Shown: positions 33,058 to 55,696 of the stretch, piece by piece
How positions within the stretch are numbered: position 1 is the stretch's first letter
How the letters are laid out: every line of letters begins with the position of its first letter
Assembly: GCA_028554795.2 (NCBI GenBank)
Contig: CM068839.1
Coordinates: 46,159,440 to 46,223,439, forward strand
Source: Sinohyriopsis cumingii
Lineage: Eukaryota > Mollusca > Bivalvia > Unionida > Unionidae
DNA: 64,000 nt
Direction of reading: 5' to 3'
Translations under genes and position numbers: made by a program
The notes under the pieces: generated by a model
The model's input: the letters and a program-made list of their open reading frames with translations, nothing else
Databases searched by the model: none
Told to the model about the DNA's origin: nothing

Positions 33058-33588
33058 AGTAGTATAAGGGGTGAGATTAGCGACAATGGGAATTAGCATT
33101 AAAAACACCCCCTGGGTAAGATTAGCGACAATGGAAATTTAACATTAACCACCCTGGGTAAGATTAGCGACAATGGAAATTTAACATGGGCAAAAAGCCC
33201 TGGGTAAGATTAGCGACAATGGAATTTAACATTGGAGAAAGGAAAAAAAAAGGAAATATTGAGATTAGCGACAAAGGCATTCGAACAATGGAAAAAAAAA
33301 ATATCGATTCTAGGGACAAAGGCAATTGAACATGGGGAATAGAGTTTGGGTCTGTCTAGGGACAAGGGGAATTGAACATGGGAATAGAGTTTGGGTTTGT
33401 CTAGGGACAAAGGGGAATTGAACATGTTAGAAAAAAAAACTACTTTAGGGACAAGGGGAATTGAACATGGGATTTTTTTTTTTTAAATTTTTTTTTTTTA
33501 ATTTAAATTTAAATTTAAAAAAGGGGTAGGCAATTGAAAAGTCATTCTCTTTTCGAGAAATATGGGTGGCCCTGAAAAGGGCCTTTGG
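33058..33588 (+). repeat. Polinton left terminal inverted repeat
   Basis: Pairs with 50,815-51,316 in reverse complement, with small indels mainly in the A/T runs near 33,470-33,525. Built from two sets of direct subrepeats: outer units carrying GATTAGCGACAATGG (about five) and inner units carrying TAGGGACAA and GGAATTGAACATG (about five). Its inner edge is the histone-type stem-loop at 33,563-33,588. Confidence 0.95.
33563..33588 (-). terminator. Histone-type 3' stem-loop, site 1
   Basis: On the minus strand: GGCCCTTTTCAGGGCC, a 6-bp stem with a 4-base TTTC loop, flanked 5' by CCAAA and 3' by ACCCA. Metazoan replication-dependent histone mRNAs end in a stem-loop GGYYCTTTTCAGRRCC with these flanks. 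It lies about 80 nt after the stop codon of the leftmost gene (33,668-33,997). A purine-rich CGAAAAGAGAATGA lies 12 nt beyond, in the position of the histone downstream element. Confidence 0.85.
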
Positions 33589-33667
33589 TTTTTCTTCTTC
33601 TTCTTCTTCTGCTTCTAATTTCTTCTTTTTCTCCACCAACTTCTTATTTTCTCTCCTACACTCTTTT

Positions 33668-33997
33668 TCATCTTTTTTTTTTCTCCTCCTCTTCTTTCTT
33701 CTTCTCTTCCTCCTCTTCTTTCTTCCTCTTCTCATTTTCTTCTTCTTTTTCAATTTTTTCATTCCATTTTCGTATTCTTATCCTTTCCTCTTCATCCTCC
33801 TTCTCCTCCTTTATCTCCTTCATGACACCATTTATTATGTCCTTTACTTTTCTTAAGTTATTAATTTCCATCTTTAGTCGATGGGGACTATAGGAATAGT
33901 GGTCTTCATTGAGTCTCACTAACATCTGCTCCATTATTCCTACATTGTCTAAAACGTCTTGTAATTTTTGCATTTTGTCAAGGTGGTTCGAAGCCAT
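33668..33997 (-). CDS. Charged coiled-coil protein, paralogue 1
   Basis: 109 codons. N-terminal helix (about 1-60, KMQKLQDVLDNVGIMEQMLV) followed by a Lys/Glu-rich coiled coil. Function unknown. Start is the ATG at 33,997, 40 nt downstream of a TATA-like element (34,035-34,047). A shared upstream module lies at 34,050-34,146. Transcription runs outward into the left TIR, where the histone-type stem-loop lies. It is one of three tandem genes of the same design (with 35,153 and 36,073). The Lys/Glu tail is encoded by A/G-rich repeats, so its length and exact stop may be affected by slippage. Confidence 0.7.
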   Translation of the reverse strand: MASNHLDKMQKLQDVLDNVGIMEQMLVRLNEDHYSYSPHRLKMEINNLRKVKDIINGVMKEIKEEKEDEEERIRIRKWNEKIEKEEENEKRKKEEEEEKKKEEEEKKKR

Positions 33998-34049
33998 CTT
34001 CTTTGTAGAATGGTTTGAACGACGAATACTGTGGGTTCTTATATGAAAA

Positions 34050-34146
34050 GCGCGGACGTGAAGGAAAACATCCCCCTAAGACATAAAATTGATCTTACCT
34101 AGATCATGACCAAACAACGCGCGAACGTGAAGGAAAACATCCCCTA
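34050..34146 (-). promoter_or_regulatory. Shared upstream module, copy 1
   Basis: On the minus strand contains GGATGTTTTCCTTCACGT then CCGCGC, immediately upstream of the TATA-like element. A second copy of the same word lies at 34,119-34,146, joined by a segment containing TGATCTAGGTAAGATCA. The same 95-bp module precedes paralogue 2, and its core precedes paralogue 3. Confidence 0.75.
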
Positions 34147-34159
34147 CTTTTCTCATTTC

Positions 34160-34935
34160 ATATAATATACTATCCACATAAGTGAAGCAACAATAAACAA
34201 AATCCATAATCTACTATCCACACAATCGTACGTGAGCGGTTACAAAAGCCAAACTATACTCTCCACATACGCTAAGAAACAATAAACAAAATCCATAATC
34301 TACTATCCACACAATCGTACGTGAGCGGTTACAAAACCCAAACTATACTCTCCACATACGCTAAGAAACAATAAACAAAATCCATAATCTACTATCCACA
34401 CAATCGTACGTGAGCGGTTACAAAAGCCAAACTATACTCTCCACATACGCTAAGAAACAATAAACAAAATCCATAATCTACTATCCACACAATCGTACGT
34501 GAGCGGTTACAAAACCCAAACTATACTCTCCACATACGCTAAGAAACAATAAACAAAATCCATAATCTACTATCCACACAATCGTACGTGAGCGGTTACA
34601 AAAGCCAAACTATACTCTCCACATACGCTAAGAAACAATAAACAAAATCCATAATCTACTATCCACACAATCGTACGTGAGCGGTTACAAAACCCAAACT
34701 ATACTCTCCACATACGCTAAGAAACAATAAACAAAATCCATAATCTACTATCCACACAATCGTACGTGAGCGGTTACAAAACCCAAACTATACTCTCCAC
34801 ATACGCTAAGAAACAATAAACAAAATCCATAATCTACTATCCACACAATCGTACGTGAGCGGTTACAAAAGCCAAACTATACTCTCCACATACGCTAAGA
34901 AACCATAAACAAAATCCATAATCTACTATCCACAC
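34160..34935. repeat. 89-bp tandem array inside the Polinton
   Basis: About 8.7 near-identical copies of an 89-bp unit (markers AATCGTACGTGAGCGGTTAC and CACATACGCTAAGAAACAAT). Copies alternate between AAAAGCC and AAAACCC at one position, so the array grew partly as 178-bp dimers. A solitary diverged unit lies near 35,775-35,905. It sits between two paralogous genes. It may be a replication or enhancer element or just expansion; no coding. Confidence 0.93.
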
Positions 34936-35027
34936 AAACTTACGTGAGCAGTTACAAACACAAACACACAAACACATCCACTCGCACTATGAAAAAAGAG
35001 TTAGTGTTTATATTCACACTACTCTAC

Positions 35028-35032
<5 letters not shown>

Positions 35033-35068
<36 letters not shown>
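35033..35068. repeat. (CA)n microsatellite
   Basis: About 18 CA units, 3' of paralogue 2. The equivalent place 3' of paralogue 3 (35,970-35,980) has only a few CA units. Confidence 0.95.
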
Positions 35069-35069
<1 letters not shown>

Positions 35070-35101
35070 GCAAATTGATGGTTATTTCTTTTCTAGAGTA
35101 T

Positions 35102-35127
35102 TGGGTAGCCCTGAAAAGGGCTGTTTT
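35102..35127 (-). terminator. Histone-type 3' stem-loop, site 2
   Basis: Minus strand AGCCCTTTTCAGGGCT (35,107-35,122), 5' flank AAAAC, 3' flank ACCCA, then CTAGAAAAGAAATAACC as a purine-rich downstream element. It lies about 30 nt after the stop of the gene at 35,153-35,551. The outer stem pair is A-T instead of G-C, which weakens the match relative to sites 1, 4 and 5. Confidence 0.8.
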
Positions 35128-35152
35128 TTTTTGGAACTTCATGGACACCTGG

Positions 35153-35551
35153 TTAATGGTGGCACCTTCCAGGCCTGGCGCCACATACACATCTTGTTCC
35201 CCAGTTGCTTTTTACTTTTTTGGGGGAGAGAGCAGAGGCAGGATATGTGGCTTCAGAATCCCAATTTTCGGTTTCTGGGATTCTGAAATTTCTTCTTCTT
35301 TTCTCCTTTTCCTCCTCCTCTTCTTTGTATCTTCTCTCCTCCTCTTCTTTGTATCTTCTCTCCTCTTCTTTGTATCTTCTTTCCTCCTCTTCTTTGTATC
35401 TTCTCTCCTCCTCTTCTTTATTTCTTCTTTCCTCCTCCTTTCTCCTCCTTCCTTCTTCCACAATGGCCTCCGCGGCCAGTTCGTTCAACAGGCGCCTGGC
35501 ATATTCCAGATGCACATGAAGTTCCAACAGTTTCGCCAGTCTCGTGTTCAT
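35153..35551 (-). CDS. Charged coiled-coil protein, paralogue 2
   Basis: About 132 codons from the ATG at 35,551 (open upstream only from a TTG). The N-terminal helix RLAKLLELHVHLEYARRLL resembles paralogue 3 (KLAKLNEAYVNLHRVRHSL). A Glu/Arg/Lys repeat region (KEEEERRY, seven-residue steps) follows, then a Cys-containing tail. Function unknown. TATA-like TAGTATAAATT lies at 35,602-35,610 and the shared upstream module at 35,614-35,707. A histone-type stem-loop follows the stop. Confidence 0.7.
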   Translation of the reverse strand: MNTRLAKLLELHVHLEYARRLLNELAAEAIVEEGRRRKEEERRNKEEEERRYKEEEERRYKEEERRYKEEEERRYKEEEEEKEKRRRNFRIPETENWDSEATYPASALSPKKVKSNWGTRCVCGARPGRCHH

Positions 35552-35613
35552 TCTGGTGTTGATCAATCAACAAGGGTAGCTGGACTGCCGAACGAGTTTC
35601 AATTTATACTAAA

Positions 35614-35707
35614 ACTGCGGACGCGAAGGAAAACATCCCCCTAAAAAACATAAAATTGATCTTACCTAGATCATGACCAAAAAACAACGCGCGGACCTAA
35701 AAGAAAC
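35614..35707 (-). promoter_or_regulatory. Shared upstream module, copy 2
   Basis: Same order as copy 1: GGATGTTTTCCTTCGCGT, TGATCTAGGTAAGATCA, then a second, weaker GCGCGTTGTT side. It lies directly upstream of a TATA-like element. Confidence 0.75.
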
Positions 35708-36011
35708 ACTCACTCACTTTTTTTATACTACCCATTCCTATTCTAAAATTTTTTTTCATTAATCACTCCAATATACTATTCACATACGCAAAGCAATCCA
35801 ATCACCCCCCCCCCAATCTACTCTCCCCACACCTCAAACAGCCAAAAAAACATGATCTTAATCTACTATCCACACCAACGTACGTGAGATGTTACAAACA
35901 CAAACACACAAACACATACCCTCACACTATAAAAAAGAGTTAGTGTTTATATTCACACTACTCTACCTACACACATTGGCAAATTGATGGTTATTTCTTT
36001 TCTAGAGTATT

Positions 36012-36037
36012 GGGGTAGCCCTGAAAAGGGCTGTTTT
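36012..36037 (-). terminator. Histone-type 3' stem-loop, site 3
   Basis: Minus strand AGCCCTTTTCAGGGCT (36,017-36,032) with 5' AAAAC and 3' ACCCC, then CTAGAAAAGAAATAACC. About 40 nt after the stop of the gene at 36,073-36,435. Confidence 0.8.
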
Positions 36038-36072
36038 TTGTGTTTTGTTTTTTTGTTTGCTATGGCAATCTT

Positions 36073-36435
36073 TTAGTTTCTAAGAATGCGATGTCCTCTG
36101 AGGATAGACTTTCTGGCGATAGGTCTGCTTCTTCGGAAAGAGAAGAACTCTTTGGTGTCGATACGACAATCGACAAAGCCTCTCTCAGGTTCAGGTTCCT
36201 GCTGCTGTTGCTGCTGCTGTTGTTGTTGTTGTTGCTGCTGTCTCTGAAGTCTGTACTTCTCTGTCCATTCTTCTTTCTCCCTGTTCACTTCTTCTCTGAA
36301 GAGTTCTTCTATCAAGTCTTCAGTGACTTTTAGCATTCTCACATTCTCTATCTCTTCTGGCTTCGGTATCAGACTGTGTCTGACCCTATGCAAATTCACA
36401 TAGGCTTCGTTTAGCTTAGCTAGTTTGGAGCACAT
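36073..36435 (-). CDS. Gln-rich coiled-coil protein, paralogue 3
   Basis: About 120 codons from the ATG at 36,435 (an upstream TTG extends the frame by eight codons). A helical N-terminus like paralogue 2 is followed by 15 consecutive Gln, then a basic tail (FFSFRRSRPIARK). Function unknown. The upstream core GGATAATTTCCTTCACGT lies at 36,500-36,530 with a weak TATA-like TTTAAG. A histone-type stem-loop follows the stop. Gln-rich plus coiled coil suggests a regulatory or scaffold role, which is only inference. Confidence 0.7.
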   Translation of the reverse strand: MCSKLAKLNEAYVNLHRVRHSLIPKPEEIENVRMLKVTEDLIEELFREEVNREKEEWTEKYRLQRQQQQQQQQQQQQQQEPEPERGFVDCRIDTKEFFSFRRSRPIARKSILRGHRILRN

Positions 36436-36499
36436 CTTCGTAGGAGGATGAGTCGACAATGGATGGTTAGACTGGAAACAACCCGGTTCTTAAAGTCAA

Positions 36500-36530
36500 A
36501 GCGCGGACGTGAAGGAAATTATCCCTCTAC
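36500..36530 (-). promoter_or_regulatory. Shared upstream module, core copy 3
   Basis: Minus strand GGATAATTTCCTTCACGT followed by CCGCGC, as in copies 1 and 2, but without the second half of the module. Confidence 0.7.
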
Positions 36531-36653
36531 GGTTTTCGAGCCGCAATGTTCAATGAGTGTCATGAGAGGGATAGTAAGAAGTCAAAGAGCATGAATCAAA
36601 CATTCTTATAGCCAAACAAATCAGAAAGGCATTTTTTTCAAAACACATCATTT

Positions 36654-36659
36654 TTTATT
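36654..36659 (-). terminator. AATAAA polyadenylation signal of the capsid gene block
   Basis: AATAAA on the minus strand about 215 nt after the stop of the gene at 36,876. It is a plausible 3' end of the structural gene block, and contrasts with the stem-loop-ended small genes. Confidence 0.5.
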
Positions 36660-36875
36660 CAAAAATCACTTAACACTAACCAACAACTCTAACATTTTTT
36701 AACAATAATCCAACAATATAACATCAAACATTTTTTTCAATTTACACTCTACTGTAAACAGGGTTGGCAACGTTGTGAATGAAATTGTGATTTCCACTGT
36801 TGCAAGTCATTGAGTCATGGATGGACACTACGTTTCCTAGCTTAAGACAACAAAATAAGCATACTAGTCACAAAA

Positions 36876-37358
36876 TCAACGATTTACTTTCTCATCGTTT
36901 CTAGAAAAATCACGATCAAAATAAGTCACTAAATGTTCTTTTGCTGATAATAAGTGATCAATTTCGATCTCGACTTTCTCTTTGAATTTGTCAAAGAGGG
37001 TTTTGATGTAATGGATGTCTCGAGTCGTTAATGGATGACAGAAATGTTCAAGCAAGTCTTTATACCACCAACGTAACACGTCTTTTTTAAACAGACTCCA
37101 AGCTTCGTCCAGATATTCGTTGAATTTTTCTTCTTGACTGATGTTTTGACATCCATAGTAATCATGCTTCATCCATGTCGTAATTGTGTCTGCCAGGTAT
37201 GTAGCACAGTAGGAGACCAATTGCTGTTCTTGTTCTGGACATCTCAACTTGATCACGATGTCCTTTTCGTCTTTGTGTTGGGATTCTCCTTCCACGGTCT
37301 CCTCACATTCCATCTTCAAAGCTTCTCCACTAGGTAAAGAGGGATAACAGTCTTCCAT
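36876..37358 (-). CDS. Unknown acidic protein downstream of the major capsid gene
   Basis: 160 codons from a clear ATG. Acidic N-terminus, then a helical region with Trp/Cys-containing segment (VLRWWYKDLLEHFCHPL). Starts 5 nt after the major capsid stop, so it is likely expressed with it. I do not recognise the family. Confidence 0.75.
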   Translation of the reverse strand: MEDCYPSLPSGEALKMECEETVEGESQHKDEKDIVIKLRCPEQEQQLVSYCATYLADTITTWMKHDYYGCQNISQEEKFNEYLDEAWSLFKKDVLRWWYKDLLEHFCHPLTTRDIHYIKTLFDKFKEKVEIEIDHLLSAKEHLVTYFDRDFSRNDEKVNR

Positions 37359-37363
37359 AGCTT

Positions 37364-38674
37364 CTAGTAATCTAGAATGACTTCTCTCAAACTGTTGATT
37401 TCTATGGTATTATCGAATTCTGCATACAGGATGACGTTCACTGTCTCGTCCAGTGGCTTTGCAAACTGAAGTTCCACACGAATCTGGCCAGATTTTATAG
37501 GGTGGAAATGTCCCTCGTCGCTGCCTTGGTCTGGAGTGAAATCGAAAGCCCACAAAGCGTACCCTCCTGCATAATCCTCGTACGTAATGCCGTGACTGGT
37601 GTTGGTTCCTAACTGTCCCGTGGCTTCGTACAGCGACAAGTACGACCTCAAGTAATTCTTCTTGTCAAAGTTAGGTTCGAAAGGTCGGGTACACAAGGTC
37701 TTGCCATCGCGACTGACTTCGATCTTGGACACGTCAAAGTGTTGAAAGTAGAAAGGATTTTTAGCGATAGCTCCGTTGAAGGCTGTATTCTCGACCATAC
37801 CAACAATCAAACGTTTGGGTAACTGTCCTTGGAACAGATGATCTTCAATCATGGATCGCTGTCCCCTAGGAATGGTAAAGGTTTTCACTTCTACGCGTCG
37901 GATCGGATACTTGGCGGTCGTTCTGCTCAACGTCTGACTGATGTCGTTTCCCACTTTAGGTAACACTTCCACACGGCGTACGTATAGTCTGGCTTCTTGG
38001 ATTTTGGTTTTGTAATTATCGTCACTATCAGCTATTAAATGGAAAGCGGCACTGCTCCGATTCAGTCTCAGGCGGACATCCACCCCGTTCAGCAAATATT
38101 TTTCTTGCAACCACATGTCCAAATGCAAACGATCCATCAGTTCTAAACTGTGTCCGTCTTTGATTCTGTCTCTTCGTTCTACAAATCCCGCATTGTGGTC
38201 TTTGGCTGTATCAGTTTTGAATGTTTCAAATTCGCCTGCATCGTCAGCTTCCCATACCACACAGGCATTGAGATGAGTGTTCTTGACGTCTATTCCGTAC
38301 GTCAAGAGATTTTCCAGGTACGCTCGATAAGGGTAAGTATCCATGCTGCTACTGACTAGTTTGTTATTCAAGTACAAGTCCACTCCGCTAAACAAGGAAT
38401 GCATAAAATTGTTGACGGGAGCTACTGGCTCAGTATCTATAGCATTTCCATCCTTATCTTGAACTTTGACTTTCAAGTACAAGTAACTGCTATTCAAATC
38501 GATGTAATCTTCGGGCTGTCCTTTGATTTCAAACTCGATGGCAGCGGAATCGATCAATGAGGAGACGGGATGAAATTCCACCCATTGGGATTCTTGCATC
38601 GTCATCATGGTGGGTGGCATGGCAAACAGATCCAGTTCCGTCTTGGAACAGGCGCAAGACTCTCGGTGCATCAT
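37364..38674 (-). CDS. Major capsid protein (double jelly-roll)
   Basis: Intact, 436 codons. It matches the conserved Polinton family found in animal genomes as F54H12.2-like proteins: ELDLF..PP near the start (14-22), YIDLNSSYLYLKVKV (about 56-72), NNFMHSLFSGVDLYLNNKLV (about 87-108), YPYRAYLENLL (about 114-125), LNGVDVRLRL, and IPRGQRSMIEDHLFQGQLPKRL..G (about 265-295). This length suits two jelly-roll domains. In the virion model of Polintons it forms the icosahedral shell in the nucleus or factory. It is followed closely by the unknown gene at 36,876 and preceded by the pVI-like gene. Confidence 0.93.
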   Translation of the reverse strand: MMHRESCACSKTELDLFAMPPTMMTMQESQWVEFHPVSSLIDSAAIEFEIKGQPEDYIDLNSSYLYLKVKVQDKDGNAIDTEPVAPVNNFMHSLFSGVDLYLNNKLVSSSMDTYPYRAYLENLLTYGIDVKNTHLNACVVWEADDAGEFETFKTDTAKDHNAGFVERRDRIKDGHSLELMDRLHLDMWLQEKYLLNGVDVRLRLNRSSAAFHLIADSDDNYKTKIQEARLYVRRVEVLPKVGNDISQTLSRTTAKYPIRRVEVKTFTIPRGQRSMIEDHLFQGQLPKRLIVGMVENTAFNGAIAKNPFYFQHFDVSKIEVSRDGKTLCTRPFEPNFDKKNYLRSYLSLYEATGQLGTNTSHGITYEDYAGGYALWAFDFTPDQGSDEGHFHPIKSGQIRVELQFAKPLDETVNVILYAEFDNTIEINSLREVILDY

Positions 38675-38692
38675 TTTTTTTGTTGCTGTGTC

Positions 38693-39109
38693 TCAATAAT
38701 CGAAAACGTCTAAGTCTCGAACGGTTCTTCTTTTCTTTGCCTTTCTAGCTTGAAGTCTGGTGAAAGGGTGTTTTCTTCGTCGTCTCTTTCTGCCTTGTCC
38801 TTGCTGAATGCCTGACTCGGTAGCGTGCAGGGCATTTATAGGTGTTTCGCGTCGGCCCAAAAGGTCTTTGCCTGTTTGCAGCAAGACATTTCTGCCTGCC
38901 CTCATGAAGGCTTCTTTAGGGTTTTGTTTGTCGATGATGACATTTTGGAGAAATTCTTTGCCTTGCGTCAGTGCCGCATCTTTCAAGGCGTGCAATCCGC
39001 GTGTCACCATCGGTTTCAACACCGGGGCCACCGAACGAAAGGCCGATTTTAACATATCTCCTAAACCGTGTCCTCGCTGTCGAGCAACCCCTCGGTACAC
39101 TGGATACAT
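38693..39109 (-). CDS. Small basic virion protein, pVI/core-like
   Basis: 138 codons. Begins MYPVYRGVARQRGHGLGDML, then an amphipathic Lys/Ala-rich stretch (SAFRSVAPVLKPMVTRGLHA), and ends with a strongly basic segment (GRKRRRRKHPF). Polintons and adenoviruses place a protein of this kind near the capsid genes; the second element here has one with the same GLG..(F)R..P plan at 60,956. It lies between penton and major capsid genes with gaps of 3 and 18 nt. The family link is inference from layout and motif. Confidence 0.75.
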   Translation of the reverse strand: MYPVYRGVARQRGHGLGDMLKSAFRSVAPVLKPMVTRGLHALKDAALTQGKEFLQNVIIDKQNPKEAFMRAGRNVLLQTGKDLLGRRETPINALHATESGIQQGQGRKRRRRKHPFTRLQARKAKKRRTVRDLDVFDY

Positions 39110-39112
39110 GAC

Positions 39113-40026
39113 TTACGAGTCGTGAGAGAACCGTTTTCGAAAATGGAGTTTCACCGTGACTTTTCCTTTGGTGAATGGAATATTTTGTCCCAAATCTCCT
39201 TTTATAGCAATGTTGACCGTGTCCAAATACGACTTGCTGACAGGCAAATAATGAGGATGTACAAATTCCCGGTGGACGTGGTAAGTGTTTCCACCTTCCT
39301 GGTCACTGGTTGTGGTACTATCCACTTTGAAAGGAATGACACGCAGTAACGGCACAGAGGTGTGTCCCACCACGTTATACTCCACCACATCGGAATACAC
39401 GAACATCAAATTCAGTCCTTGGTTCAGTTCTACAGGGAATCGAAAAAACTTGTAAAATTCCGTATTGCTGTTGATCTTCGGTTTAAAATTTGGAGCCATT
39501 TTTGTGTCTCCACCTAAAATATCAAACAAGTCACGATTAAAACTGATGGACAACGTTTGGGTATCCTGAAATTTCATCAGTAAGCGACGAGCCACTTTAT
39601 GGTACTCCAGGGTGACACTTTTTTGACTCTGTTCAGGGCTTTGCCAAAGGCTAACTCGAACCTGGAAGTAATGGTGTCCACCAAATGTTGACCACCAAAA
39701 TAAAACCCTGCCGGAATTTTCAAGGTGTAGATATTGAAGGGTGAATTGTTGGATGGTCTTGTGTCCCCTGAGAACCCGATGTCATTCATGACTTCTTGTA
39801 ACTGTTGGTTCAGGATTTCGACCTCAAAAGTGTTTTGCTTTTCAGTGATGTTTTGGATTTGTGTAGGGTGAATCATTTCTACCAAAGCCACTTCCCAATG
39901 GGCTTCGTGATCTAACTGGATGGCCTGAGGTAATTTGGCCGTGTAACAGCACAACGTGTTGTTGGGGAACACCTCCATGGAACTGTCACTGGGTAAGGTC
40001 AAGTAAAATTGGTTTTGGTGACTCAT
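39113..40026 (-). pseudogene. Penton-like minor capsid protein, one frameshift
   Basis: Two frames form one conserved Polinton protein. The first (40,026 to about 39,620) begins with FYLTLPSDSSMEVFPNNTL, EVALVEMIHP and IPAGFYFGGQHLVDTI. The second (about 39,620 to 39,113) continues with LSISFNRDLFDILGG, LNLMFVYSDVVEY, VPLLRVIP and GKVTVKLHFRK. The break is in a run of six A (39,619-39,624), where one base appears to be missing. This is the single jelly-roll minor capsid/penton family by layout. The ATG at 40,026 overlaps the stop of the upstream gene by 4 nt (ATGA). Confidence 0.85.
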
Positions 40027-40442
40027 AATTCCAGAGTTCTGTGGCTGTCCGAGGGGTTACTGGACGTCAGAGGTGTGTCTCCGCCCAAAATGAGGTTCTG
40101 GTTGTGATTGTTGTTGGAGTGGTGACTGGCACTGGCACTGGACACAAGGTTCCCGTGGTTCCCGTTCGAGGAGAATTTCAGGGAGGGATTGGGAAGCAGG
40201 TAACCGATGCAACTGCTCAATAAAATGGTCCACAATTGTTTGTCTCCTTGTTGCAAACTCAAATTGGCGATGGCTGCCCCGATGACACAATACACCAGGA
40301 AGATTTGGCAGAAAAAGACGATTTGCGTTTTAGGCACACGTTCTCCACACCACACCCACAAGGGTTGTTTTCGTAAATCTTGCACAGAAGAACTAGGTGA
40401 TGGAGGAGTGGTCGACGTAGCTGCTTCTGTGTGAAAGGGCAT
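40023..40442 (-). CDS. Two-helix membrane protein
   Basis: About 139 codons from the ATG at 40,442 (an upstream GTG adds three residues). Two hydrophobic segments (VFFCQIFLVYCVIGAAIANL and LWTILLSSCIGYLLPNP) separated by a short loop, followed by an Asn/Ser/His-rich tail. A small membrane protein of this type recurs in animal Polintons as I recall; no function is assigned. Its stop overlaps the start of the penton gene. Confidence 0.75.
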   Translation of the reverse strand: MPFHTEAATSTTPPSPSSSVQDLRKQPLWVWCGERVPKTQIVFFCQIFLVYCVIGAAIANLSLQQGDKQLWTILLSSCIGYLLPNPSLKFSSNGNHGNLVSSASASHHSNNNHNQNLILGGDTPLTSSNPSDSHRTLEL

Positions 40443-40447
40443 GATGG

Positions 40448-41557: not shown

Positions 41558-41578
41558 TTTTTTGTGTTGGTTGGTGTG

Positions 41579-42269: not shown

Positions 42270-42656
42270 TTATCTTGTTCCCACCAGTCCTCCCAACATG
42301 GTTCCCAAGACTCCTTTCAGTAAGGGGCATAACAAGAGAGGTAAAATGCCTCTATGTTGGACCAACATCTTCTTTTTTTGACGATTCGGAATTTTCTTTT
42401 GAACCATTTGGCGAAGAACGTGACGATGTTTGTTTAAGCATTGTTTCTGGTGTTTGGACAAAGGGATCGTGCCTTTCAAGACGTTCAAACAACATTCGCA
42501 CACGGTATCGATGACCTCTTTGGAGGCCGATTGAATGAGTTTTTTTCGTAGAGGTGGAGAAGCTTTGGACAGGACAGATAACATGTCCCCATGTTTGATT
42601 AAACGTGGTGGTAGTCCTTTTCTTTTCTTTCCTTGGGGTTTTCTGGAGGGTGACAT
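42270..42656 (-). CDS. Small conserved basic protein, pX-like (paralogue A)
   Basis: 128 codons from the ATG at 42,656. The longer open frame would start at 42,737, but a TATA box (AGTATAAAAAAGG, minus strand, about 42,711-42,723) lies inside it, so the shorter start is preferred. Features: LIKHGDMLSVLSKA, TVCECCLNVLKGTIPLS (Cys-rich), KKKMLVQHRGILPLLLCPLL near the end. The C-terminal RGILPLLxxPLL resembles the hydrophobic end of adenovirus core protein X. The product at 42,716 has the same plan, so the two are probably paralogues. Confidence 0.75.
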   Translation of the reverse strand: MSPSRKPQGKKRKGLPPRLIKHGDMLSVLSKASPPLRKKLIQSASKEVIDTVCECCLNVLKGTIPLSKHQKQCLNKHRHVLRQMVQKKIPNRQKKKMLVQHRGILPLLLCPLLKGVLGTMLGGLVGTR

Positions 42657-42715
42657 CTTTGAGTCTTCAGGAGCACCAAAAAAACACTGATACCCTACTT
42701 GGTCACACACCTTTT

Positions 42716-43638
42716 TTATACTGGAACGCGTCGCCACTGATTGTCTTTACGTCGTATCAATTTGAGGACAGGCATGACACGTCGTGCAGGGGTACGTAAC
42801 GGACTAAATCGAGCCAGTTCTTGCTTGGACAAATCCAGTAAACTTTGTAACATGCCCGATCTTTCTTGGACTTTGATTTTGGGAGAAGGTACTTTGTGAG
42901 CAGCAGCCACTGCCACTAAATTGGAGGGTCCTACCACTGGGGAAGTAATTCTTGGTGTGATCAACGTCTCCAAGTACTCTTCAGTTCTTGGTGTCATCAA
43001 CGGAGAAGTGGATGAACGTGAGGCTGCCGGAGATGCGGTCACCGCCGTGGCAGGTCGTGGTTTGCGAGTGTAAAGTTGCGACCTGGACGAAGTGCCTCTC
43101 TTGCGACTAGTTTTCTTCTGTGGACTTTTCTTTTTCTGGGGACTTTTTCTCTGTTTCTTTTTCTGGGGGCTTCTTTTCTTTTTCTGGGGTGGTGTCTGGT
43201 CAGAGGAGGGTCCCGCCACTGGAGAAGTTCTTCTTGGGGACCTGGTCTTTTTCTTCTTCTTGGGGCTTCGTTGGACATTTTTCTTGGGGAGAAGTTTGGG
43301 GGCATTAGGATCCCATCTTAAGAGAGAGCGAATGATGACCCCTCCTAGAGTACCGCTCCCTCCAGGTTTCAAAATGATTTGTTTTTTGGTTTGAGTGTCG
43401 ATGCGGGGATCGGCCAGTTTGACCAAAGCGACTTTGTTTCGATCGAAAAAGCGTTTGGTTTGATGAGGAATCTGAATGATTCCTTGGAGTAATTGACGTG
43501 CCGTCACCGTGAACCATCGTAAGACTTCTTTGAGACTAGCTTCTAAGACACGAGCTCGTATTTGTGGATTTTTTCTCGACTGATGCCATACAAGGCACGA
43601 ATCAATTTGACGGGAAGATGCGACTGAAGGGACGTCAT
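42716..43638 (-). pseudogene. SPKK-rich basic protein (paralogue B), one frameshift
   Basis: Start ATG at 43,638 (MTSLQSHLPVKLIRALYGIS) with a TATA box CTATAAAAA about 45 nt upstream. The frame is lost at a run of six A (43,569-43,574) and continues in another frame with LRWFTVTARQLLQGII, KVALVKLADPRIDTQTKKQI, then ILKPGGSGTLGG. The middle is a long Ser-Pro-Lys-Lys region (about 90-170) typical of DNA-binding histone-like tails. The C-terminus is unique and basic. One A appears missing; the run matches GA6, a known slippage-prone word. A core protein role is likely but inferred. Confidence 0.75.
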
Positions 43639-43691
43639 GTTGACGCTGTGTGAGACAGACGAAAAAGGGTCTGAGGTTTTTATAGATTTTT

Positions 43692-44435
43692 TTATGTGGA
43701 GTGAAATGAAGTCGAGGACGGAGACGTGTACAGTACAGGCCCTCCGTCTTGGCACCAGTGGTGAAAGAAGTGGGTACGAAATTGCAAATCCTCGGGGGTC
43801 GTAGGTTTCAAATCGACGAGTAAATAGGCGTGTGGAGTTTGAGTGGCATCGTCGTACGCCTGAGTCAGCCAAGGCGTTCCTAATTGTTTGGCTAAGACTT
43901 ACACTTGCGATTTATCTCGAGAGCTTTTAAACAAGACCACGTAATGCGCATTGAGACTGATGGTGCGATGGGCTTTACTTTGTTGAAACAAATTTTGAGT
44001 GATGTAAACGACACTGGCATTACGGTGATGCCCTTTGCGCGTGAACCACAGTTTAATTTCTTCTTCGTCTTCTCCTAACATGTCGTCAAAAATGACCAAA
44101 TGGGTTAGACGGGAGTCAGAGACGATGCCGTCGTCTTCTTTAGGAATGCCTTCCACAAACACGATGGAATCGCCTTGACTTTCTCGCAAGAGGCTGTACG
44201 CCGATTGCCACTCTTTGTAACACCACACGATCCTTTGAGGTGGCCGATCGATCAAATGATGTTTATGTTCGATCAAACGTTTGACGAATTCGGTTTTGCC
44301 TGAACCGCTAGGTCCAGCAATGAGCATGTTAAAGGGATGGCGAAGATACAAAGCCTCCCAACTGGCACGATCTAAGTGTTCGTCGATGACTTTGACAGTA
44401 GAGGAAGAGGGAGCAGAGACAGTAGAGGTAGCCAT
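43692..44435 (-). pseudogene. Packaging ATPase (FtsK/HerA/A32 type), one internal stop
   Basis: 247 codons from ATG at 44,435 to TAA at 43,692, with one TAA at 43,899-43,901 (codon 179). Walker A GPSGSGKT at 41-48, Walker B LVIFDD at about 113-118, and the YITQN sensor-like segment (about 150). After the stop the same frame carries LAKQLGTPWL and AYLLVDLKP, the normal end of this family, so the stop is a true break. TATA box TATATAAA lies at 44,484-44,491. Genome packaging into capsids is the family role. Confidence 0.92.
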
Positions 44436-44507
44436 AGTGTGAGAAATGTCACTTGTGACACGAAAACAAACAAGACAAGAGTTTATATACATTTTTTCAG
44501 AACACGT

Positions 44508-44513
44508 TTATTG
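44508..44513 (-). terminator. AATAAA polyadenylation signal
   Basis: Overlaps the stop of the preceding small ORF, downstream of the polymerase gene. It is a candidate 3' end of the PolB transcript. Confidence 0.5.
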
Positions 44514-44868
44514 AATGTTCCAAACATGAATACGAAAGACAAAAATACATAAAAGCCAAAGGTTTAAGTATAAGGATAAAAGGCACATGATAACCATTAA
44601 CGTGGAATAAACACAAATGTCTGTACAACATGTTTTGGGTAATGTTCTAACCAGTTCTATAGTAGGGGGTAAGGTCACACAAGTGTCCTCCCGAAAGGGT
44701 CTTTCAGGCCTGTCCACGACAGTCCCGTCCTGGGTGACGGGTTCTTCTGGCACCGTCACTAACACAGGTTGAAAAGTCGCAAGGCTCACAGTCGCATTCC
44801 ACTTCAGAAGCCCCACACTTGAATTGTGCCTGTCTAAACTTGTTTTGTGTTTCTCTGAAAGTATTCAT
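44508..44868 (-). CDS. Small gene between ATPase and polymerase (frame uncertain)
   Basis: Two overlapping readings. From the ATG at 44,868, 54 codons of Cys-rich sequence (KCGASEVECDCEPCDF) end at 44,704. In another frame, 44,816-44,508 reads 102 codons with a C-terminal membrane segment (LMVIMCLLSLYLNLWLLCIF) but no ATG, only GTG. The second frame stays open up to 44,864 and contains NSSVG and NATVS glycosylation-type sites. A splice or frameshift could join them; I cannot tell. The stop codon at 44,508 lies inside AATAAA. Confidence 0.45.
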
Positions 44869-44900
44869 CTTGTTCGCTCGGTCTTGGTAGTCACAATGAA

Positions 44901-47900
44901 CTATCGATCTTGCCTAGGGTTTCTTTTTATATACAGACCAATACCGACGTGTCCATACGGTAAGGTGAAATGATTGGGAAGTCGCACTCGCTTCTGGTAC
45001 ACGATTTGATAGACTTTTTCCAAGGGTCGACTGACGATGTGGTGAGTGGGTAAACGTACAATTTTGTTCGGTTGATAGGTGGTCACTTTAAAGTTTGCAT
45101 CCTCTCCCGATTGCAAGGCTTCTTTCAATACCCCAAAGTTCACCACACGACTGGTACGATAATTCAGAGTCAATCCTTTCACTTTACACGTCGTGTGCAA
45201 TTCTCCTTGTGGGTCCCGGTATTCGTAGCCGTAATTTTTGGGACCACCACTGACGAAACTTAGAATCTTGTCGTCGGGATGTTCGTCTGTCCAGGCTCCT
45301 AAACGGTCTCCTTCGATGTCAGGGTGCTGTTGACTCGGGTGATGGATGTAAATGCAACTGTCCGTGTCAAAGTACAGGACACGTTCCCCTAACAGTTCTA
45401 AAGCTTCGTACAATTTTAAGCGAGCATGAGCTGTCACGTAAGCCGCAATGATGACATTTCCAAAGGGGTCGTCTTGTACAAAGTCCAGATCTTCTTCGTA
45501 ATTGACCAAGATCAAATCCTCGCGAACGACGTCCACGTGTTTCATGTATTTGGTTTTGTCGTGAATCATCTGAAAGTAGCGGGAAGGTTCTGTCAAATAT
45601 TCCGTCTTGGGTAAACACGGTCGTTGTGCCATTTTACCCCACAAGCAATTTAACATCACTTTGGCAAACGAGCGCCTGCCTTCGTTTTTCTCGATGTGGT
45701 CTAAAGAGATGCCTTCTTGTTCATAGCATTTCTCTTTGAATGTCTTTTCGTCTTCGGAAGTGTGACACCAGGAAGGATAGCCGCTGGCTACTTGCTTCAG
45801 TTTCAAAAAGGCATCCACGTAGTCGGCGAAAATGCCTTTCTGACTGGGGTCACCCTTGTGGTATTGTTGTGTCTTGGGAAAGTGGGAAATTTTGTACACT
45901 TCTAACAGTTGGTATCCCATGTCCAGAGCTTTGAACAATTCTACGCTGATCCAGGTTCCCGTCAAGGCACGTTCTTCCTGGGTGTGCTGACAAGGTTGGT
46001 CTTGGTTGCACGTTTCGGCACAAGTACGGCACAATGGAAACATCAGTTTGCCTTGAAAATGGTGAGTTAAGACGGGATGGTATAGGTTCGTGGGAGGCAA
46101 AACTTTACACTTGATCAAGCCTTCGTATTGTCGAATGTTTTTCAGGTCGATGTGTTCCGTGAACAATTGTGGGTGCCCTGCATTAAAGGGACAATATTTG
46201 CACACTAAAGGTACAGCGAACACACGTCCAAGTATTTGATTTGTTCTCCTTTCTCTTCGTCGGCTTGGTACAGCAAACAGGTGGCATTGGTCCTTCCTCC
46301 GTACAAACTATCCCTCGGGTTTAGGGGGTCCATCAACTTGTAACTTTCCACGGCACGTTTAAACTCGGGATCGGTTTTCATACGGTGATCGTACTCGTGT
46401 TCCCACATTTCCACCACTTGGTATCCTTGCTGTTCTAACTTTAGGCGTCGCTGACAAGTGTCCTGGTACAAGTCTTCCATGGTTCGTTGTAAAAACTGAT
46501 TTTTAGTGCTACGATCAGGGTAACAGACGGGACATCCGTGAAATAAGCAACCGTTAAACTCGTACACGATCTTGGGGTTTTCTAAGTCCCAGCCATCGAC
46601 CGAATACGTTCCGATGGTCTTTTCGCCTCCTCCGTTGCGGGCATGCTAAATCCATTTGTCTTCCTTGTCGCACAAGTAATGTAACCAACGTAGGGCTTTG
46701 ACCGAGTATTGACGTTTGACATAGTTGGTCGTTTGAGGACTGATGACAGCCACGGTGTTTTCAGGCATGAATCGTTGTCGATACACTAAGGAACACGCTT
46801 TGGCAATGGTGCAAGCTTCTTTCAAAGGATCGACCCCTCCGTGTTCCATGAACAGTTCTCGAAATTTTCCACAGCAACGCCGTAAAATGTCCACGTCAGA
46901 ACGACAATACTTTAGCATTTCTTCCTGAAAGTCGAAAGGGTCGGAGGCGTGAGTCTGGTACCAAGCGTAGAAAGCTTCTCGTTGTTCGGAACGCATGTTG
47001 TCGGGGTCGTAATAGTGAGCCTCAGGCAAATGGGGTAGAACGGCGTGTTGATTGGCTTCCGTATTGAAAAAGTGAGGAAAATAACCTTTAGCCATTTCTG
47101 TCATTCCAAACGTTTTAGGCATTCGACTCAAAGGCATGGCCAAGTAACTCATCGAATCTTTAAACTGCACTTGTCCCACTTGCATGAAAATGATTTTGGC
47201 TCCGTTCAAAGTGACTTTAGGACGTTCGGTGCTATGTTCCGTATAGTACCTCAAAAGAAACTGACGATGACAATCTCCGTAACGTTCGATGTCCTCTTGG
47301 CTCCACGTCTTGTCGATGGGATCTAAGACCCATTGGGCAAAATCGGCTAACGTGTTCGGTCCTCGAAAGATTTTTTCACGCCCTCCCGGAATCTTGCTGC
47401 AGTGAGGGCAATGACTGAAGATAGGTTCTTGAATGCACTTCTCGCACGCTCGATGAGCCACGCAGAAATTAGGAATGTGAATGCCAGTCTCTTGCATGCA
47501 TTCGAAATCGAAAAAGATGAAATTGCCTTTCTTCTTGTGACCGTCCCCTTTTTCTGGTGGTGGTTGGTATTTTTGCACGTAGCATTGGTGTTCCAAGTCC
47601 ACGATGTGGTGACAAATGTGACATTTTTTCTTTCCTGAACATACATGTGCCTTGGTATTATTGGTACGTAGGCCTTTTCGACACGTAGGGCACAATCTCA
47701 GCAGTTGACAAGCACATTTCTGCTGTGAACCTTGCGTCTTCAGATGTTGTTGGTAACAGGCAGGGCTGACAAACGTGCGCAGTCAAGCAGGACAATGTAC
47801 TCTTTCTTGTCCTTCGCTCAGACAGGGTAGAGAGGCCAAACATCCTGGGCATTTCCATCCGCAATGTTTGTGTTGCTCTCGATTGTTATAGCCATAGTCA

Positions 47901-48931
47901 CATTTCTCACAGTAATAACTGTATCCCAGGAATCCAGTGATAGTGGTAATGGTATCGAAATGGTCATCGTGATAATAGACATGAATGTATTTTCCGTCCT
48001 TAAAGTCTTTCCCTCGAAACAACAGAGGTCCGCGCATTTCTTGAGGGTGCACTTTCAAGGTGTAGAGTGGAGCTAGGACATCTTGCAATTTCTGCATCTC
48101 AGGAATGCCACAGGGTGTGTCTTTGGACAGTCCGGCTTGTTGTAACAGGAGTTCTGCTTCGTTTCGTTGTTTGGCTCGGTCGGATCGTTGAATAGTTTTC
48201 CAGGCTCTTTTCCATTCTACCGTGTCGTTCTTGTTGGCATAGGTTCGTCCCACCACGATGGCTCGGGCTAAACACACCTGGTCTTGAGAATTGTGAATTT
48301 GGACGAGACTCTTTTTGGTGTTGCGAAGGTCGTTCACCAATAACACCTTATTGCGTTGTCCGGTCCCTTGAGGAGGAGAGACGTGGGCCATTTTCAGTGT
48401 GGCTTTACCATCGGTGATGTCAAACTGGTCATTAGATTGTTGTACGTGTTGAATCTTGTCCATGACTTTGGAAGGGGTTAGTTCTGCGGGTCTGCTAAAC
48501 TCGATCCAAACAGGGGATTTCAAGCTGTCGTGATCTATGGATAGTGTCAAGCGATCGTCTTCTTTGGGTTGACATTGTCGCTTGAGTGCGGTGAGCAAAG
48601 AATCCCACATCTCGGTGATAAACCCTTCTGCTTTCTCCAATGGTACGTCGGACTTGAAATCTTTAAACTTCACTGTGTAGGTGTAAGCCGTGGTTCTAAA
48701 TTTTCTAGAGGAGCGCTTTTTCGTCTCTCGAATGGAATAGTACTTTTCAGGGTTGACTAAGAGTGGTGAACTTTGTTTAGAGGGTTCGGATTCTGGTTCA
48801 CTCATGTCCTCTTCAAAATCACTGGCATGAATTTGTGCCAAGACTTCAGCTCTGGTACGAGGCGATAGATCACGTTTCTGCCTGTTACTTTCTTCTTCTT
48901 CTTTCTTCTCGAATGAATAGGATCGTTTCAT
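44901..48931 (-). pseudogene. Protein-primed family B DNA polymerase, three breaks
   Basis: One gene of about 1,340 codons in four open pieces. Piece 1 (48,931-47,783) carries an N-terminal domain and a Cys-rich finger (CEKCDYGY, CGWKCPGC). Piece 2 (47,782-46,646) has exonuclease motif I (IFFDFECM), Cys/His clusters and exonuclease III (YCRSDVDIL). Piece 3 ends at polymerase motif A (YLDVCSLY). Piece 4 (46,223-44,901) has LNCLWGK (motif B) and YFDTDS (motif C, about 45,349-45,375). Breaks: TGA at 47,783-47,785, TAG at 46,646-46,648, both in frame, and a one-base loss at CC 46,210-46,211 exactly at motif A. This is the replicative polymerase of Polintons. TATA box at 48,980-48,985. Confidence 0.95.
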
Positions 48932-48979
48932 CTTGAGTGCAAAACGTCAAATGACTCAAGTTTAAACACCATAGACTAA

Positions 48980-49010
48980 TTTATAGTCATGGCAGACCAG
49001 CGTATATAAA
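48980..49010. promoter_or_regulatory. Back-to-back divergent TATA boxes (PolB / CCHC gene)
   Basis: Minus-strand TATAAA at 48,980-48,985 and plus-strand TATATAAA at 49,003-49,010, only about 20 bp apart. Each is about 50-60 nt from the ATG it serves (48,931 and 49,066). Confidence 0.75.
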
Positions 49011-49065
49011 AGGGTGTGTGTCTTGTCCTTTCACTATTCATTTCACTCTCAAGCCGAGCACAACG

Positions 49066-49497
49066 ATGGAAGAGACTAACCAAATCGAACGTTTCGTCAG
49101 AGCTTTGCGTGGGGTCATTAGAAAATTCTCTTCAGACTAGCCCACGGACTACTCTCCTTCCTTTCGAGATAAAAGTCAATATACTTGCTATATCTGTCAG
49201 AAGAAAGGGCATTGGTCTTCAGAGTGTCCAGACCGTCAAAAAAGAACAAAAACAGGGGCTAGAAAAGACAAAAGTCAAGATACCTGTTATTATTGTCAAG
49301 AAAAAGGACATTGGTCTCCAGATTGCCCAAAAAAGAAACAAGAGGAGTCGGAAGAAAAGAGGGATTCTTCAGAAGAAGAGAGAGATTCTTCAGAGGAAGA
49401 AAGCAGACAGGTGAAGAAAAGAAGAAGGGAAGAAAGTGAGGAGGAAGAGGAGGAAAAGACTGTGACGGTGAAGAAATTAAAAAAAAAGAGAGAGTAA
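49066..49497 (+). pseudogene. CCHC zinc-knuckle protein, internal TAG
   Basis: A plus-strand frame from ATG 49,066 to TAA 49,495-49,497, 143 codons, with one TAG at 49,138-49,140 after codon 24. Two perfect C-x2-C-x4-H-x4-C knuckles (49,186-49,227: C Y I C..GHW..C; 49,285-49,326: C Y Y C..GHW..C) precede an acidic-basic tail. No Met after the TAG. Knuckles of this kind bind single-stranded nucleic acid, as in retroviral nucleocapsids. It has a strong TATA at 49,003. Whether the TAG is a mutation, readthrough signal or part of an intron is open. The usual ORF lists miss the knuckles because they have no start codon. Confidence 0.75.
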
Positions 49498-49710
49498 AAA
49501 AAGAAACAGAAGAAGTGAATGTAATTTATAAAGTGTTCTGTTGTGAATTGTGAATTGGACTGTAACTATGGAGAAAAGAATACATTAATTATATAAGGTA
49601 AGTGTCTTTGAGTTTTGATTTTAAAATAAGAAGCTACACTCACGCACTCATACACAGACATGTACTATAAGGGTAAAATGTTTTTTTGTTGTTGTTGATT
49701 TTTGAGTTAT

Positions 49711-49787
49711 TGGCAAATTGAAAGGCTATCTCTTTTCGAGAAATGTGGGTGGCCCTGAAAAGGGCCTTTTTTGGTGTAGGAGTGAGT
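49711..49787 (-). terminator. Histone-type 3' stem-loop, site 4, with downstream element
   Basis: Minus strand GGCCCTTTTCAGGGCC at 49,751-49,766 with 5' AAAAA and 3' ACCCA, followed by CGAAAAGAGATAGCC. It lies 22 nt after the stop of the gene at 49,788. Confidence 0.85.
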
Positions 49788-50345
49788 TTAAGCAATCAAC
49801 TTTAACTGTCTTAAGCCTTTGCCACGGCCGAGGCCTACTTCTGATGATGATGATTGGGTTGAAATCACTAAGGGTGGTACGATAGGCTTAGTCACAGGGT
49901 TGGCGTGTTTAGCTCGGGAAGGTCGTATTCTCTTCGGTCGTGATAAAGAAGTCTGATATATTTGTTTCAGACTTCTTAACTCCGCTAAAATGTCCAACAG
50001 TACCGTAGCCGTTTGATTTTCACCCTCTTGTTTCTTTGCTGCTACTTCTTCTTGTTGTTGTTTTTGTCTTACCTCTTCTTGTTGCTGTTGCTGTTGCTGT
50101 CGGAGAAAAGCTTGTTCCGCTTCCTTTTGTCGTTGCATAAATTTCTCCAATTCTTCTTTCTGTCTCTGTCTAAAATTCTCCACTTGCGGTAATGAAGAAT
50201 GAGACGAAGGTTCCGGAACAAATTCTTGCGAGGTAAGAAAATCCACAAAATCCCAATGTACCTCTTCTGAAAGTAAGTCCGGGTTCCCTTGGGCGGTCTC
50301 CACTGCTGGTGCACCCCAATGGATCGTTTTCTGAGTTTCCGTCAT
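49788..50345 (-). CDS. Gln/Glu-rich coiled-coil protein
   Basis: 185 codons. N-terminal acidic/aromatic part (HWDFVDFLTSQEFVPE), a Gln/Glu coiled coil (about 60-105, with QQQQQQQ), a short helix (LLDILAELRSLKQIYQ), and a basic C-terminus (RPKRIRPSRAK, GLGRGKGLRQLK). Function unknown; the shape suits a regulatory DNA- or RNA-binding protein. TATA box CTATATAG at 50,394-50,399 and a histone-type stem-loop after the stop. Overall plan resembles the three tandem genes at the left end. Confidence 0.75.
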   Translation of the reverse strand: MTETQKTIHWGAPAVETAQGNPDLLSEEVHWDFVDFLTSQEFVPEPSSHSSLPQVENFRQRQKEELEKFMQRQKEAEQAFLRQQQQQQQEEVRQKQQQEEVAAKKQEGENQTATVLLDILAELRSLKQIYQTSLSRPKRIRPSRAKHANPVTKPIVPPLVISTQSSSSEVGLGRGKGLRQLKLIA

Positions 50346-50393
50346 GTTGAATCACTGTCGCATAGATTGACAGCACACAGGCGCTAGCGAATC

Positions 50394-50520
50394 TATATAG
50401 ACCACATGACGTCACAGACTGCTCTCTTCGGATTGGATGCGGACTGACTGAATTTTGTAACGCGTGTTCGGATTGGTGAATGAACTCAATCCGTTTCAAT
50501 CCTTCCTCTACCTATAAATA
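50394..50520. promoter_or_regulatory. Divergent promoter with CRE and ATTGG boxes
   Basis: Minus TATA at 50,394-50,399 and plus TATAAATA at 50,513-50,520. Between them are a CRE palindrome TGACGTCA (50,407-50,414) and two copies of TTCGGATTGG (ending 50,436 and 50,476; ATTGG is the reverse of CCAAT). CCAAT and TATA are frequent in animal histone promoters. Confidence 0.65.
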
Positions 50521-50564
50521 AGCGCAGTTCACTGCATTGATTCACCTGTTCTCGTCGCCTCACG

Positions 50565-50795
50565 ATGTGGACCACAGCTGAATCATCCAGCCTTGTGTCT
50601 TGAATGATGTTTAGGACGGACATGCTCATGTATGTCCGGTCCAAGTGGACTGTTGTTGATAGGACAGATACTAGTCTATGGATGAGAAGAGTTTACATAG
50701 AAAGACAAGGATGCCTCAAGAGGGTACTTGTGTATGGACCTGCAGTTAGAAGGAGTTTAAGAAGAAGAAGATGTGACAGATGCCGTCTATGTTAA
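50565..50795 (+). pseudogene. Small basic protein gene, internal TGA
   Basis: ATG at 50,565 opens 12 codons (MWTTAESSSLVS) to TGA 50,601-50,603. The same frame reopens directly with ATG 50,604 and runs 63 codons to 50,795, ending in an Arg-rich Cys tail (VRRSLRRRRCDRCRLC). A TATA box lies 45 nt upstream, and the histone-type stem-loop in the right TIR starts 20 nt after the stop. So the transcript of about 300 nt is well delimited. It may be one broken gene or a short upstream ORF before a real 63-codon gene. No family recognised. Confidence 0.6.
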
Positions 50796-50814
50796 TATTA
50801 ATATTAACATAAAT

Positions 50815-50840
50815 CCAAAGGCCCTTTTCAGGGCCACCCA
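50815..50840 (+). terminator. Histone-type 3' stem-loop, site 5 (in right TIR)
   Basis: Plus strand GGCCCTTTTCAGGGCC at 50,820-50,835, 5' flank CCAAA, 3' flank ACCCA, then CGAAAACAGATAGCC. It is the mirror of site 1, facing outward. Sites 1 and 5 therefore give matching ends to genes transcribed towards each terminus. Confidence 0.85.
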
Positions 50841-55671: not shown

Positions 55672-55696
55672 TATTATTATTCGTTGTTTTTAGTGT

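Follow-up and report, generated by a model that had tools for sequence, protein, structure and literature searches.

A stretch of 64,000 nucleotides from the freshwater mussel Sinohyriopsis cumingii (assembly GCA_028554795.2, contig CM068839.1, positions 46,159,440 to 46,223,439), hereafter the window, contains a Polinton/Maverick element of 18,259 bp at 33058..51316, to which no strand is assigned, and five small genes of this element are followed by stem-loops of the type known from histone mRNAs. Both ends of the element begin with the terminal inverted repeat (TIR) start AGTAGTATAAG.., and a 6-bp target duplication, CACCCA, is present at 33052-33057 and 51317-51322. The left TIR (33058..33592, plus strand), which contains internal tandem repeats, and the right TIR (50811..51316, minus strand) share the inverted repeats I1-I5 (79-100%). 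The Pfam matches are PF03175 (PolB, in two open reading frames (ORFs), the polymerase being split in this copy), PF00665 together with PF00385 (integrase and chromodomain), and PF04665 (A32-type ATPase). TIRs, a 6-bp target duplication, a type B DNA polymerase, an rve integrase with a chromodomain and an A32-type ATPase are also the features of animal Polinton/Maverick elements; for these elements, the titles and abstract starts searched report no histone-type 3' signals. The main gene cluster (36876..48931, minus strand) includes a capsid-like ORF, the integrase, the ATPase, the split PolB and others, and carries no histone-type stem-loops. For the capsid-like ORF (37364-38674) no capsid family was matched by Pfam, and its length is the usual one for a capsid protein; no adenovirus-like protease was matched among the ORFs scanned, which were a part of all ORFs. 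Those of the 120 listed integrase relatives that bear names come from oysters (Saccostrea, Ostrea) and from amphioxus.

Four of the small genes lie on the minus strand: g1 (33668..33997, 109 amino acids, Lys/Glu-rich), g2 (35153..35551, 132 amino acids counted from the first ATG, with Glu/Arg-rich repeats), g3 (36073..36435, 120 amino acids counted from the first ATG, with poly-Gln) and g4 (49788..50345, 185 amino acids, Gln/Glu-rich). The fifth, g5 (50604..50795, plus strand), is Arg-rich and has 63 amino acids in the window copy, while most related ORFs have 76-78. No Pfam histone match was found in g1-g5, and these genes do not encode histones. A first-pass annotation of the sequence had placed a stem-loop after each of them, and its coordinates proved exact at all five sites, as did the sense orientation after the stop of a small gene (5/5); the distance of 20-80 nt that it gave from stop to stem was nearly right, the measured values being 84, 30, 40, 21 and 24 nt for g1 to g5. 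With their flanks, the stem-loops occupy 33563..33588 (site 1, minus), 35102..35127 (site 2, minus), 36012..36037 (site 3, minus), 49746..49771 (site 4, minus) and 50815..50840 (site 5, plus), and the form is GGCCCTTTTCAGGGCC at sites 1, 4 and 5 and AGCCCTTTTCAGGGCT at sites 2 and 3. The core CCCTTTTCAGGG, found at 33570-33581(-), 35109-35120(-), 36019-36030(-), 49753-49764(-) and 50822-50833(+), is expected 0.24 times when one mismatch is allowed, and none of 100 shuffles reached five.

The Rfam model of the stem-loop in the histone 3' untranslated region, RF00032, matches all five sites with E values from 3e-9 to 1.3e-4, and three of the five exceed its cut-off of 34 bits (site 1, 40.8 bits; site 4, 41.8 bits; site 5, 40.0 bits). 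No further RF00032 match was detected between 33 and 64 kb of the window, where the Rfam scan otherwise returned one unrelated family, a chance match far under its own cut-off. Each site folds by itself into a 6-bp stem with a 4-nt loop (-9.0 to -11.4 kcal/mol, z from -2.3 to -3.0). A second signal, missed by the first-pass annotation, is the element GAAAAG (GAAAAC at site 5), which starts 13-14 nt past every stem. Together with the rest of the spacer it occupies 33543..33562 at site 1 (CTCGAAAAGAGA, minus), 35085..35101 at site 2 (CTAGAAAAGAAA, minus), 35993..36011 at site 3 (CTAGAAAAGAAAT, minus, with a spacer 1 nt longer than at the other sites), 49726..49745 at site 4 (CTCGAAAAGAGAT, minus) and 50841..50860 at site 5 (CTCGAAAACAGAT in the window copy, plus). 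The complete layout reads GGCCCTTTTCAGGGCC-ACCCACATTT-CTCGAAAAGAGA at site 4 and AGCCCTTTTCAGGGCT-ACCCAATACT-CTAGAAAAGAAA at site 2; the loop and the element at the spacing of site 3 have 3,959 matches in the genome, and the reversed pattern has one.

Comparison with the host's own histone genes, which the first-pass annotation had suggested as a check, showed that H2A, H2B, H3 and H4 bear the same stem and a similar downstream element. A search with PF00125 led to a tandem histone repeat of approx. 8.3 kb per unit; 150 of 662 candidates were scored and 30 near-identical tandem loci (L061-L090) were fetched, while the 3' ends of H2A and H2B come from a single repeat unit (L094). All four genes terminate in GGCCCTTTT(T/C/A)AGGGCC, with the stem GGCCCT:AGGGCC, and a GAAAAG-like element follows 13 nt past the stem (14 in H2A). 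The H3 end is ..GGCCCTTTTTAGGGCC-ACACAAATGT-CTAGAAAAGAGC in 30 of 30 loci, the H4 end, seen in 29 of 30, is ..GGCCCTTTTTAGGGCC-ACAAAAAGAA-CTAGAAAAGATA, and those of H2B and H2A are ..GGCCCTTTTCAGGGCC-ATACATATCT-CTAGAAAAGATG and ..GGCCCTTTTAAGGGCC-ACACAATTAAT-CCCGAAAAGGAAT, respectively. Judged by its sequence, the Polinton stem is thus that of the host core histone genes; the Rfam consensus has GGCUCU instead. This disposes of an earlier argument, that a compensated base pair at some sites reveals selection on the fold, since the host histone genes share that very stem. The 16-nt stem-loop of H2B is identical to those of sites 1, 4 and 5, and CTAGAAAAGA lies at the same distance from it. In the case of H2A, the likeness to sites 2 and 3 extends 20 nt beyond the downstream element (1 in 2001 shuffles, among 20 comparisons), although H2A has a TTTA loop and an element placed 1 nt further off; this likeness suggests, tentatively, an H2A-type gene as the source of the captured signal. 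Over the same 20 comparisons, the flank of site 4 beyond the element is weakly like those of H2A, H4 and H2B (p 0.014, 0.029 and 0.040), and no extra likeness to H2A is seen there at sites 1 and 5 (p 0.25 and 0.45). A TCAA(0-2 nt)TTTG-like motif was also observed beyond the downstream element in host H2A, H2B and H4 and at Polinton sites 2-4; perhaps it represents extended pairing with U7. The usual GGCTCT form has 155 exact copies in the genome, and GGCTCTTTTNAGAGCCAC stem-loops occur in tandem arrays with a period of approx. 4.26 kb (C8 at 71.02-71.21 Mb, C61 and C370), to which the majority of the 100 listed places belong; these may be a further array of host histone genes.

The signal is abundant and preferentially conserved. 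In the 2.9 Gb of genome searched, GGCCCTTTTCAGGGCCACCCA has 13,559 exact copies and AGCCCTTTTCAGGGCTACCC 19,306, a total of 32,865, and the reversed patterns have none; with two AGCCC sites per element, these counts suggest thousands of elements. The signal served to fetch 60 loci, 30 from the 75 Rfam matches and 30 from the 13,559 pattern matches, and all 60 match this Polinton lineage. Conservation was counted at unselected sites only, i.e., those that were not the reason for fetching a locus; rows of site 1 or site 2 whose gene match starts more than 40 bases inside the gene were dropped, and site 3 lies outside the sample. In these other Polintons of the same host, where the first-pass annotation had proposed to look, the stem-loop is kept at 58 of 60 unselected sites (site 5, 27/27; site 4, 15/17; site 2, 14/14; site 1, 2/2), or in 54 of 56 without rows L035, L036, L040 and L041, which belong to two elements fetched through both sites. 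All six pairs are intact in 49 of the 58, standard pairs fill 339 of 348 pair cells, and the outer pair is G-C in 40, A-U in 13, G-U in one and broken in four. GAAAAG or GAAAGG is found at one distance in 57 of 58 (14/14 at site 2). For the 24 distinct rows of site 5, column identity is 0.958 and 0.972 for the stem arms, 1.0 for the loop and 0.975 for the element, against 0.773 for the spacer; at site 4 (15 rows) the arms reach 0.913 and 0.978 and the element 0.987, the spacer 0.808; and at site 2 (14 rows) the values are 0.952 for both arms, 0.896 for the loop, 0.935 for the element and 0.867 for the spacer. Signal and spacer contrast clearly at sites 5 and 4 and slightly at site 2. When the 27 site-5 rows are compared with the site-4 form of the window, the differences amount to 8 among 702 positions in stem-loop and element, and to 58 among 270 in the spacer (8/650 and 58/250 in the 25 rows left without twins). 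Two conserved blocks that flank a variable spacer of constant length match what is predicted for a histone signal.

With regard to ordinary 3'-end formation, an AATAAA poly(A) signal lies at 36654..36659 (minus strand), 217 nt past the last ORF of the main cluster, and is followed by a GT-rich stretch. Among 107 genome matches to its flanks, it reads AATAAA in 54 of the 56 copies with letters shown, which is mild evidence because the copies are close. In contrast with the main cluster, no AATAAA or ATTAAA occurs within 150 nt past any of the five small-gene stops; over 700 nt, the first appears 166 nt past g1, 573 nt past g5 and 651 nt past g3, and none was found past g2 and g4.

The known use of such signals gives these observations a meaning. 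As described in PMC7614891, SLBP binds the stem-loop, the U7 small nuclear RNA (snRNA) pairs with the downstream element, cleavage downstream of the stem-loop is carried out by the complex with CPSF73, and the level of SLBP rises ahead of S phase; for a cnidarian, PMC5011920 terms the stem-loop and the downstream element hallmarks of replication-dependent histones. The 3' end of metazoan replication-dependent histone mRNAs, as represented by RF00032 and these two sources, shares with the Polinton sites a 6-bp stem, a UUUC loop and an A-rich 5' flank. The purine-rich downstream element at a near-fixed distance, the short open frames and the lack of a close AATAAA are also common to both. The Polinton differs in that its genes are non-histone small genes of a mobile element, in the A-U outer pair of sites 2 and 3, and in having five sites per 18-kb element in many elements.

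The core claim of the first-pass annotation, that small genes of a Polinton carry histone-type 3' signals, is borne out by the Rfam matches at 5/5 sites, the downstream element, the host-like stem, the 32,865 copies and the preferential conservation. The reading that we favour, with a probability of roughly 0.86, is that the mRNAs of the five small genes would be cut by the SLBP/U7 histone pathway of the host, with a signal taken from a host core histone gene, and that the element has two 3'-end systems. The five genes of this lineage, four on the minus strand and one on the plus strand, would be transcribed in the host into pre-mRNAs bearing a signal of the host type, i.e., a stem-loop to be bound by SLBP and, 13-14 nt past the stem, a downstream element to pair with U7 snRNA. 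We infer that the host machinery would then cleave between the two, directly past the stem-loop. From the histone pathway, as PMC7614891 and PMC5011920 depict it, the stem-loop should form the 3' terminus of the five mRNAs, and poly(A) should be lacking. The main cluster with its replication and capsid genes would use the ordinary AATAAA signal, so that the element as a whole would run two 3'-end systems. As for its origin, a core histone gene of the host is the probable source of the module, H2A having the most similar flank, and copying to the five genes would have followed.

Three other explanations were weighed. The one that survives best, although we consider it improbable, is that SLBP uses the stem-loop for stability or translation without a cut by U7, the transcripts either acquiring poly(A) at a more distal point or being read through. 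In differentiated cells, polyadenylation of some histone mRNAs can occur, and the ATTAAA past g1 would fit such a use; nevertheless, conservation of the downstream element is close to that of the stem, its distance is the same in 57 of 58 sites, and g2-g5 have no AATAAA or ATTAAA within 550 nt past their stops. Still less credit is due to the idea that a histone 3' fragment was captured once and carried along with the TIRs and with gene duplications as a functionless passenger. The approx. 60 bp common to the sites and the amplification of the copies by thousands agree with it; the excess of changes in the spacer over stem-loop and element in the 27 unselected site-5 copies (58/270 versus 8/702) speaks against it, as does the lack of an ordinary poly(A) signal near the five genes. 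Equally little weight is given to a DNA-level element of the Polinton ends (for protein-primed replication, packaging or integrase binding) whose histone likeness is superficial, as the position of sites 1 and 5, at the inner border of the TIR arms, might suggest, given that the TIRs do not include sites 2-4, each of the five is in sense directly past a stop with the downstream element on the 3' side, stem and element match host histone genes, and a DNA cruciform has no need of a conserved TTTC loop.

Several observations nevertheless weigh against cleavage by the histone pathway or weaken the case for it. Sites 2 (31.0 bits, E 3.1e-5) and 3 (29.3 bits, E 1.3e-4) score under the Rfam cut-off. 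The five sites are related by duplication, two of them inside TIRs: approx. 60 bp are common to all five (families D6 and D8), and sites 1 and 5 are situated at the inner edge of two TIR arms (33508-33592/50811-50895, 79%), from which it follows that the sites are related copies instead of independent finds and that sites 1 and 5 may have been copied along with the TIRs. In two of 17 copies (L013 and L027) the stem-loop of site 4 is absent. The ACCC(A) 3' flank noted in the first-pass annotation is present in the window (ACCCA at four of five sites, ACCCC at site 3), but other copies and genes do not keep it, and it belongs to the variable spacer: ACCCA is found in 31 of the 58 unselected sites (site 5, 5/27; site 4, 12/15; site 2, 13/14; site 1, 1/2), AGCCA replaces it in 17 of 27 site-5 copies, and none of the four host histone genes read has it, their flanks being ACACA, ACAAA or ATACA. 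The ATTAAA 166 nt past the g1 stop also counts here, as does the ability of the downstream element at sites 1 and 4 to pair with itself as a 4-bp hairpin. If the 155 GGCTCT copies are histone genes, GGCCCT is not the sole host form. Recombination or exchange between TIRs may keep the region similar, given the gap in synonymous divergence (dS) between g4 and g5 described below. Host U7 was not found in the genome by RF00066 or by sequence patterns, and a domain search of the genome for host SLBP, in which exons were searched singly, found nothing; a true absence of U7 and SLBP is unlikely in view of the stem-loops and downstream elements that the host histone genes carry. Finally, searches of the viral contigs gave no relatives of the integrase, the capsid-like protein or g4.

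The U7 patterns gave rise to candidates that were rejected. TCTTTTN{0,10}AATTTGTCTAG had 18 matches versus 32 for the reversed control, and none of the 18, all of which were read, was convincing; TCTTTTCN{0,8}TTTNTCTAG had 306 versus 302, and four of the 306 were read, none convincing. In the viral contigs GGCYCTTTTCAGRGCCACC had no matches, and the single match to a looser signal pattern is, by eye, a coincidence within coding sequence.

No report of a histone-type signal in a Polinton was found in the open literature, searched by title and the start of the abstract, most subscription papers being outside this coverage. The frameshift RNA of SARS-CoV-2 is reported, in PMC12166091, to be bound by host SLBP, hence the use of SLBP by viruses as such is not new. 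In that case, however, the role is frameshifting and not the formation of an mRNA 3' end, and its title and the start of its abstract mention no downstream element. The present finding is an established RNA signal with a user of a new type, and a virus-like element using the histone signal would be an exception. On a broader and more tentative level, to which we give somewhat under even odds, the Polinton lineage may have captured a host core-histone 3' module and put it on five genes, so that part of its expression follows the S-phase histone pathway, and the approx. 33,000 exact stem-loop copies may compete with the histone mRNAs of the host for SLBP and U7. Use of the signal would tie part of Polinton expression to S phase and would make it simple to test at what times Polintons are active in animals; likewise, poly(A)-selected RNA-seq would miss these transcripts, and Polinton activity may have been hidden.

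The small genes themselves differ in their constraint. The ratio of non-synonymous to synonymous divergence (dN/dS) of g5 is 0.05-0.21 in 30 of 40 ORFs (those with finite dS, above 0.6), and g5 is under purifying selection. For g4, of which 20 homologues were found (the best 87% identical), dN/dS is 0.26-0.59 in 21 of 25 ORFs and 0.70-1.22 in three near-identical ones, spanning 0.28-1.22 among ORFs with dS below 0.05; purifying selection on g4 is less strong than on g5. For g1, it is 0.04-0.09 in four of six related ORFs (those with a finite estimate), with dS >1. Between copies (loci L001-L060), dS is 0.02-0.2 in g4 and often >1 in the adjoining g5, which points to recombination between subfamilies, the elements seemingly exchanging segments; for this reason, the saturated dS of g5 was not taken as a neutral yardstick. 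A neutral expectation derived from it (P 1e-8 to 1e-15 at 22 of 27 loci) was not relied on, since the spacer also changes less than the synonymous sites of g5, and the contrast within the region was used instead. A homologue search for g5 gave no candidate. Its product is small and Arg-rich with a Cys-rich end, and a role as a DNA-condensing core protein is conceivable from this composition. A common motif (around GCGCGGACGTGAAGGAAAACATCCCC, plus strand; family D9) is found upstream of g1, g2 and g3 at 34039-34088, 34108-34157, 35604-35653 and 36490-36539, and may be a promoter that the stem-loop genes have in common.

A second virus-like element occupies 54349-63788 of the window, with its genes on the minus strand: a double-jelly-roll capsid protein (59436-60878), a weak adenovirus-protease-like match (58509-58976, E 0.012) and an HNH endonuclease (62936-63439). 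It is a related kind of element at the same host locus, but no histone-type stem-loop was found in it (54.3-63.8 kb), either by pattern or by RF00032, and in this it differs from the Polinton. Within the Polinton, a tandem repeat with a period of 89 bp (family D1) extends over 34077-35088, between g1 and g2, and a zinc-knuckle-like reading frame recognised by eye on the plus strand (49066-49496), interrupted by a stop in this copy, converges on g4. Outside both elements, a tRNA-like match (RF00005, 35.5 bits) lies on the minus strand at window positions 9860-9932.

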